Part shown: positions 41,825-42,532 of the stretch, in pieces
How the letters are laid out: each line of letters begins with the position of its first letter
Numbering within the stretch: the stretch's first letter is position 1
Source of the DNA: Ailanthus altissimus
Taxonomy: Eukaryota; Streptophyta; Magnoliopsida; Sapindales; Simaroubaceae
NCBI GenBank assembly: GCA_946807835.1
Contig: OX327694.1
Location: 8,816,001-8,880,000, forward strand
Reading direction: 5' to 3'
DNA length: 64,000 nucleotides
Position numbers and translations under genes: made by a program
Notes under the pieces: generated by a model
Told to the model about the DNA's origin: nothing
The model's database searches: none
What the model saw: the letters and a program-made list of their open reading frames with translations, nothing else

Positions 41825-42471
41825 TTACAAAAGTAGTGTCAGATCCAATTTTCGCTTGTTATGGCCTATTGACCAATCGATCTGAATTATTGCTAGGTAA
41901 GGTTTGTAGGTAACTGCCTGTAATTTGTCAATCAATTCATTCACATTGGTAGCAGAAACAAGGATCTATCGCGCCGAATGTGAAATAAAATTTTGTTCCA
42001 CGGCTTGCTCAAGAAAACAGATTAAGCAATCAAAATAGTTATTAACATTCAACAAATTTATGGGTTTTTGGAGGATATTCAGTTAGGTTCAATAAGTAAT
42101 TTGAAAATTTTCTTTCAAGGTACCAAAACCACCTGGTAAAGTAATAAAAGCTTCTGCATAGTAAAGCATTCTAGCTATACGTTCATGCATGGATGAGACT
42201 CGTAATTCTTCCCTTATTATTTTTCCAATCAGGTTTTTCACGGCTAAAGCTGTAGGAATAATACCTAAAACTTGACTTCCTCCTAAATGTACAGTTGTTA
42301 ACACATACCCCATTAACCCAAGGCTACCCCCTCCATAAATCAAATGGATTTTTCTTCTAGCTAATACTTTTTCTAAATTGTTTGCTGCCTCTACAAACAC
42401 TTTATTATCCTATGACTAAATCCATAAAATACACATATATTTCTGAATCATCGAACTGAGGTTTCCTCCAT
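41825..42471 (-). pseudogene. Captured LOG (cytokinin riboside 5'-monophosphate phosphoribohydrolase), Gyp1 copy C
   Basis: The best LOG copy: ATG at 42471, end at 41825, about 215 codons, as in plant LOG proteins. The N-terminus has RNICVFYGFSH, matching the LOG nucleotide-binding start but with changes at the usual Cys-Gly-Ser. The open part 42089-42400 holds HLIYGGGSLGLMG, LGIIPTAL, SSMHERIARM and the LOG signature LPGGFGTLKE. The catalytic arginine (MHER) and glutamate (TLKE) are kept, whereas a conserved lysine after MHER is isoleucine. The C-terminal part, with LLNVNNYFDCL, FLEQAVEQNFI and NELIDKLQAV, continues in the same frame through three stops. One single-base frameshift lies between start and core, near 42405. 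No introns. It sits sense-oriented between the cysteine-rich gene and the 3' LTR, with a TATA box 50 bases upstream. Inactive as it stands. Confidence 0.85.
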
Positions 42472-42520
42472 ATCTACTTTCACCTTTATCTCAATATATG
42501 AAAATAAAGAAAATGATGTG

Positions 42521-42532
42521 CTATATTTATAG
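42521..42532 (-). promoter_or_regulatory. TATA box upstream of LOG, copy C
   Basis: CTATAAATATAG on the minus strand, 50-61 bases before the LOG ATG. It matches the position of the TATA box in copy A. Confidence 0.5.

Follow-up and report, generated by a model that had tools for sequence, protein, structure and literature searches.

A LOG-type gene, predicted to activate cytokinin, in Ty3/gypsy retrotransposons of Ailanthus altissimus

Does a family of Ty3/gypsy retrotransposons in Ailanthus altissimus carry a plant LOG gene, and what would such a gene do there? The question is raised by the window, i.e. the whole stretch of 64,000 nucleotides analysed here, for which a preliminary description had proposed from the letters alone that one such family carries a captured LOG cytokinin-activation gene. 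Three copies (A, B and C) of one Athila-like Ty3/gypsy family are present in the window (Table 1); the Athila name, for this family as for the type A elements described below, is one that we assume from the primer site and the look of the gag linker rather than from an RT tree. In copies A and C the LOG gene is broken and lies downstream of pol in the same strand sense (gag, RT, integrase-region and NABP pieces were placed by tblastn), its position in the family being between pol and the 3′ LTR; RNase H and integrase were not found by tblastn in the RT-to-NABP stretch of copy A. Identity among the window copies, LTRs included, is mostly 71–87%, which indicates that they are old. Copy B is 92–97% like the window-type element L055 in the pieces that hold its gag, NABP and 3′ end, and is, judged by this likeness, younger than the other window copies. 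A further LTR piece at window positions 1–749, 80–85% like the LTRs of copies A–C and L055, points to another family member at the window edge.

Table 1. Coordinates of element features, given as window positions unless a locus is named.
Feature	Position	Strand	Remarks
Copy C broken LOG gene	41825..42471	-	ATG position 42471; one frameshift, four stops; Pfam and alignment to L054
Copy C TATAAATA	42524..42531	-	60 bp before LOG ATG; position worked out
Copy C broken NABP (viral-type zinc-finger) gene	42806..43425	-	tblastn
Copy C protease end, RT, RNase H, integrase region	43597..46746	-	
Copy C gag/protease pieces	49501..50537	-	tblastn
Copy C 5′ LTR piece	51614..52439	-	
Copy C 3′ LTR piece	40270..40699	-	
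Copy A broken LOG gene	23951..24562	-	tail KRKLDLTLCL readable; alignment to L054
Copy A TATAAATA	24615..24622	-	60 bp before LOG ATG; position worked out
Copy A NABP gene	24889..25452	-	tblastn
Copy A gag, protease, RT pieces	25753..28017	-	tblastn
Copy A primer-binding-site-like TGGCACCGTTGCCGGAGA	29024..29041	-	
Copy A 3′ LTR	21017..22571	-	borders approximate
LTR between copies B and A	29046..30792	-	3′ LTR of B; by primer site, 5′ LTR of A; borders approximate
Copy B NABP frame	32287..32832	-	open, 182 aa from ATG
Copy B junction	32120..32122	-	801 bp with LOG missing relative to L055
Copy B open frame	33084..35147	-	gag/protease region fused to integrase end
Type B 397-aa frame	L023 2861-4051		
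NABP	L009 4859-5548		between pol and LOG

That the gene is of the LOG type, as first described, is borne out by profile and structure. The frame 42409-42089 (minus strand) of copy C matches the Pfam Lysine_decarbox/LOG profile PF03641 at 8.2e-16 and 58.8 bits (cut-off 27), and the LOGs of the two element types found elsewhere in the genome, A and B, reach 137.7–139.1 bits against the same cut-off. Best hits to a non-LOG Rossmann protein had been named as contrary evidence; instead, two LOG-type proteins of Arabidopsis, 2a33 and 1ydh, match best among solved structures, and we take them to be LOG3 and LOG8, respectively. Among 35 aligned relatives PGGxGTLEE is invariant and Arg98 is kept in 90% or more, and both the PGGxGTxxE motif and the upstream Arg presumably have roles in LOG enzymes. 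The window genes were read against L054, an unbroken relative of 215 aa from the window's own subfamily. Copy C aligns with residues 1–19 at 42471–42415 and with residues 22–208 at 42409–41849, with 75% amino acid identity in the long piece and 86.9% nucleotide identity over 749 bp; from the end of the alignment at 41849 the tail would run to near 41825. Copy A aligns in several frames, with frameshifts and stops and 83.4% nucleotide identity. Both genes have thus decayed, and they share, as had been noted, the gene, its place and the TATAAATA 60 bp before the ATG. In copy B the flanks of the missing LOG stretch are 96.8% and 95.1% identical to L055; the loss appears as a single 801-bp gap, the far edge of which lies at the L055 stop codon.

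Intact copies were sought throughout the 37 contigs (939 Mb) of the same assembly by a six-frame LOG-domain search, which gave 4,943 first-look candidates. The best 150 were scored and all 150 span the LOG domain with no internal stop, a number that is a lower bound and, since the best-scoring candidates were taken, favours intact frames. Sorted by the end of the profile match, 87 are type A, on 31 contigs, and 63 are others; 40 loci were fetched, 21 of type A and 19 from the other group, and 18 of these 19 proved to be type B, with L054 as the one member of the window's subfamily. The LOG frame could be read from the ATG in 37 of the 40 fetched loci, the exceptions being L022, L025 and L041. 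Three carriers were seen, namely the window subfamily, type A and type B. L055, the window-type element around L054, contains pol pieces, NABP (a 207-codon frame) and LOG in that order, with the LOG frame open and TATAAATA 60 bp before its ATG, so that the genome search suggested earlier did recover a window-type copy with an unbroken LOG frame.

Type A repeats this layout: pol pieces, NABP and LOG follow one another in sense in nine of the ten elements L009–L018, while in L015 NABP and LOG are present and Athila-like pol was not found before them. The sole type A element read from end to end, L029/L009, has LTRs of ~1,438 bp that are 99.58% identical, a CTACC target duplication, the primer site TGGCGCCGTTGCCGGGGA, a G-rich PPT and the order RT-RNaseH-integrase, all as in Ty3/gypsy elements, the window copies being pieces only; it has one in-frame stop inside RT and a shortened LOG. 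Type B is built differently. In L019–L028 the LOG and a second frame are flanked by long direct repeats, measured as LTRs of 2,725 bp in L020 and 2,851 bp in L024, and the repeat stretches are at least 99.8% identical in seven of the ten (L019, L020, L022, L023, L024, L027 and L028), with 99.1% in L026, 92.7% in L025 and 88% in L021. L020 and L024 carry the duplications AAGTA and TAACA, the primer site TGGTATCAGAGC and a PPT, and the placement of PPT and primer site puts the LOG antisense to the element, which rules out a sense orientation. No gag-pol was found in these ten stretches with Athila-type pol as query, the lone match, in L025, covering residues 1–97 of the window frame 33081-35150; the tRNA-Met-type primer site and a FEDEIL remnant before the PPT would suggest a chromovirus link. 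The second antisense frame, of 397 aa, is open in L023, L024, L027 and L028, and in L023 it is preceded by a separate TATAAATA at -70 and followed by an AATAAA past the stop, with the same TATA box in L024; its two halves gave no Pfam match, no solved structure matched up to E 5, one homologue is listed, and the structure model has a pLDDT of 33. L027 (G000:C5:4488000-4497900) holds two type B copies spaced by ~6.55 kb, with an identical repeat of 3,351 bp, and looks like a tandem array sharing LTRs, and in L023 cytochrome P450-like frames seen by eye (8664-9901, minus strand; e.g. FSRGRRGCMG) adjoin the type B insertion. In all three elements read at both ends the target duplications are 5 bp long and all are different, which, with the type A loci spread over so many contigs, excludes one segmental duplication. 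A Ty3/gypsy carrier therefore stands, but not the single family first proposed, as there are at least two kinds of element.

What types A and B have in common is only ~0.86 kb, comprising a TATA box, a short leader, the LOG frame (217 codons) and AATAAA, in sense in type A and antisense in type B. Between L016 (type A) and L024 (type B) strong similarity runs from -76/-71, at the TATA box, to +824/+784, past the AATAAA, with short weak matches only beyond the unit within 1.5 kb. Chiefly on account of this shared unit, the LOG probably moves as a gene with its own promoter. TATAAATA stands at -73 in nine of ten type A loci (L009 reads TATGAATA instead) and at -68 in all eight type B loci with a clean frame, a count of a short sequence that excludes the later-fetched loci, which are too short. 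The earlier proposal of capture through RNA holds in that the gene is intronless, lacking both introns that were checked in a host LOG gene; the RNA route itself is weakened, since the shared unit includes the TATA box, which a reverse-transcribed mRNA would not bring. Unless the promoter was added afterwards, the sequence of the unit is evidence against a simple reverse-transcribed capture.

A partner gene, NABP, precedes LOG in type A and in the window family. Against Viral_NABP (PF05515, cut-off 23) L001 scores 30.7 and window copy B 27.6, the type A frame matches at 3.8e-7, and Carla_C4 is above cut-off in the copy B protein only, of the two tested. As in carlavirus-type NABP (PF05515, PF01623), a basic run and a Cys-rich finger are present in both proteins tested, and both pass the PF05515 cut-off; it differs from carlavirus NABP in being retrotransposon-borne, in its 182 aa and in an N-terminal part beyond the viral match. 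Some viral NABP relatives bind RNA and weaken silencing. Relatives number 551 at E up to 0.001, with proteins of Acer, Populus, Xanthoceras and Rhamnella among the 120 listed. A genome search gave 4,914 NABP candidates, and many of the best 150, which were scored, have a stop inside the matched stretch; taking the best 150 of each search, at least 65 of the 87 type A LOGs have one of these NABPs on their own strand at a constant distance. The LOG relative P0061 and the NABP relative P0130 each sit on an 8,723-bp contig, probably one and the same. The NABP structure model has a pLDDT of 61. Immediately before the NABP of L009 a splice-acceptor-like TTTTTTTTTTACTTGCAG (polypyrimidine-TTGCAG) is seen at 4785-4860, and suggests a spliced subgenomic RNA.

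As to descent, a 42-row tree separates 38 element-type LOGs (94/92, not starred) from LOG3/LOG8 and from two bacterial rows, with types A and B as sisters (95/90) and copy C beside P0061 (90/74). A search with the LOG3 C-terminus gave 11 candidates and three matches in the host genome. The host genes L033 and L034 have exon borders at LOG3 residues 135/136 and 183/184, for which L033 shows GT..AG edges; both proteins end in ...WEMEQLDYSQEYDIDISM, and over three exons they are 85–88% identical to LOG3 and 39–55% to the element LOGs. Arabidopsis LOG3 (2a33) and LOG8 (1ydh) have the whole enzyme domain and motif in common with the element LOGs, but host-type LOGs have introns (in the one host gene tested) and no EAR-type tail, whereas the element LOGs are intronless and have the tail. 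Recent capture from a host LOG3-like gene was tried as a grouping of host, Arabidopsis, type A and type B and rejected (p-AU 0.00066), the group tested having been named after a first tree was viewed. Many of the LOG relatives listed come from Reevesia, Xanthoceras, Populus and Paulownia, and a gag-linker stretch is part of two LOG models from Xanthoceras, L009-like in one (24/34 identical) and window-like in the other (20/44).

We predict, with the scales close to level, that unbroken genomic copies of the window LOG family make a cytokinin-activating enzyme from their own promoter, in which case a functional hormone gene would likely be spread by mobile DNA. A plant LOG-type gene would have been acquired long ago, and the unit then passed as a block from one element family to another; the carriers would have gained by raising active cytokinin, as higher cytokinin would promote dividing cells of a meristem-like kind, in which new insertions can reach the germ line, and the NABP partner is predicted to bind RNA and weaken silencing. 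The bolder form, in which a selfish LOG unit with a nuclear EAR tail crossed unrelated lineages, so that even an element with no gag-pol would prosper and, together with a virus-type suppressor, cells would divide, lower their guard and open the germ line, we hold tentatively and think rather unlikely. The dN/dS across element copies, proposed earlier as a check, bears on the question: pooled over 340 pairs (20 type A copies by 17 others, one of which is L054) the NG86 value is 0.302, with 0.303 for the pair L014-L020 (bootstrap 0.20–0.46), and inside the groups it is 0.435 in type A (20 copies), 0.195 in type B (eight copies) and 0.293 among the 17 others, all copies having been chosen by profile score and thus biased toward intact frames and low dN/dS. 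By these values, protein change between the A and B LOGs is held back. A serious, though minority, possibility is that, after a single capture, the LOG merely rides along in successful elements and does nothing for them, the low dN/dS stemming from a few source copies that happen to keep it or from host use. Copy B lost its LOG yet is 95–97% identical to L055, so that the gene may be dispensable to a given copy, and the LOG copies were selected by score; against hitch-hiking speak the unbroken domains and constrained protein change across two carriers, and the presence of the shared unit also in type B, with no gag-pol in the stretches read.

The C-terminal tail allows a further reading, namely that the LOG product acts mainly as a nuclear EAR-type repressor or corepressor decoy, hormone activation being secondary or lost. 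EAR motifs are short sequences, LxLxL or DLNx(x)P, with LDLNLTP in ZCT1 and ZCT2 (PMC9956375, in the part available). Of the 120 relatives listed, 90 show LxLxL and a further one DLNxxP within the last 12 residues (91/120), and LxLxL occurs in none of 2,047 other 12-residue blocks of the same relatives; the other 29 are, by eye, 12 short models, five fused Xanthoceras models, eight tails such as KKRRLA or KRRRLD, three with a leucine replaced and one with a changed reading frame. Among the fetched copies 18 of 20 type A end in an IDLTLRL tail and 15 of 16 type B in DLNLTP, and an EAR-type tail is absent from LOG3, which ends KLCWEMERIGYSSEE, and from the two host genes. The KKRK-LxLxL/DLNxxP tail is predicted to lead to the nucleus and to bind a TOPLESS-type corepressor, and its conservation in these 91 relatives favours action through the tail. 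However, the catalytic-motif columns are invariant or nearly so, some relatives, with Xanthoceras-type tails, have no EAR motif, and an earlier-branching group without the EAR tail retains the enzyme domain, so that we consider this reading improbable. Plants have LOG gene families, and ordinary host genes or retrocopies could lie near elements by chance or be multiplied in one segmental duplication; this is contradicted by the LTR pairs and target duplications that surround the LOG, by the fixed spacing to NABP and by host LOGs that are intron-split and only 39–55% identical to the element LOGs, and we regard it as practically out of the question. The preferred reading remains a cytokinin-activating enzyme, probably made from the gene's own promoter.

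LOG in gypsy elements is already known in outline, as a YgdH (LOG) domain is found in Gypsy consensuses of Citrus sinensis and C. clementina and, without the filter, of P. trichocarpa (PMC9289625, citing Steinbauerova et al., 2011). The Citrus elements likewise hold a LOG-type domain within Ty3/gypsy of trees, but the available part of that paper does not describe how the gene is built, nor a promoter, tail, NABP partner or second carrier, and it has neither a selection test nor per-genome counts. The feature is real, and larger than the preliminary description saw. An AlkB-type RNA demethylase in Ty3/gypsy of Phalaenopsis is likewise an extra enzyme ORF kept through many copies, but it acts on RNA and was assayed (PMC9289625, same part), whereas the LOG here is predicted to be hormone-activating and has its own TATA box and poly(A) signal. 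Retand, Grande and RIRE2 have internal-region ORFs antisense to the element, like type B, but according to the available text these are TRP28 and other domains, in place of LOG and a 397-aa frame (PMC7264820, PMC11963269). Extra ORFs and domains in elements are treated in general in PMC7264820, PMC11963269 and PMC6338049, in the accessible parts of which cassette, tail and NABP partner are unmentioned, and a literature search, with most subscription papers outside it, returned no report of the cassette, the two carriers, the tail or the NABP partner.

Several of the listed LOG relatives are annotated as hypothetical proteins or LOGL10, so that some of the LOG genes counted in tree genomes may be element copies. 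If the enzyme works, plant mobile DNA carries and multiplies an active hormone gene at very high copy, for which the hormone genes of gall-forming bacteria and the oncogenes of retroviruses would be the general parallels. It also becomes possible to test directly if a retrotransposon is able to direct the fate of host cells for its own benefit.
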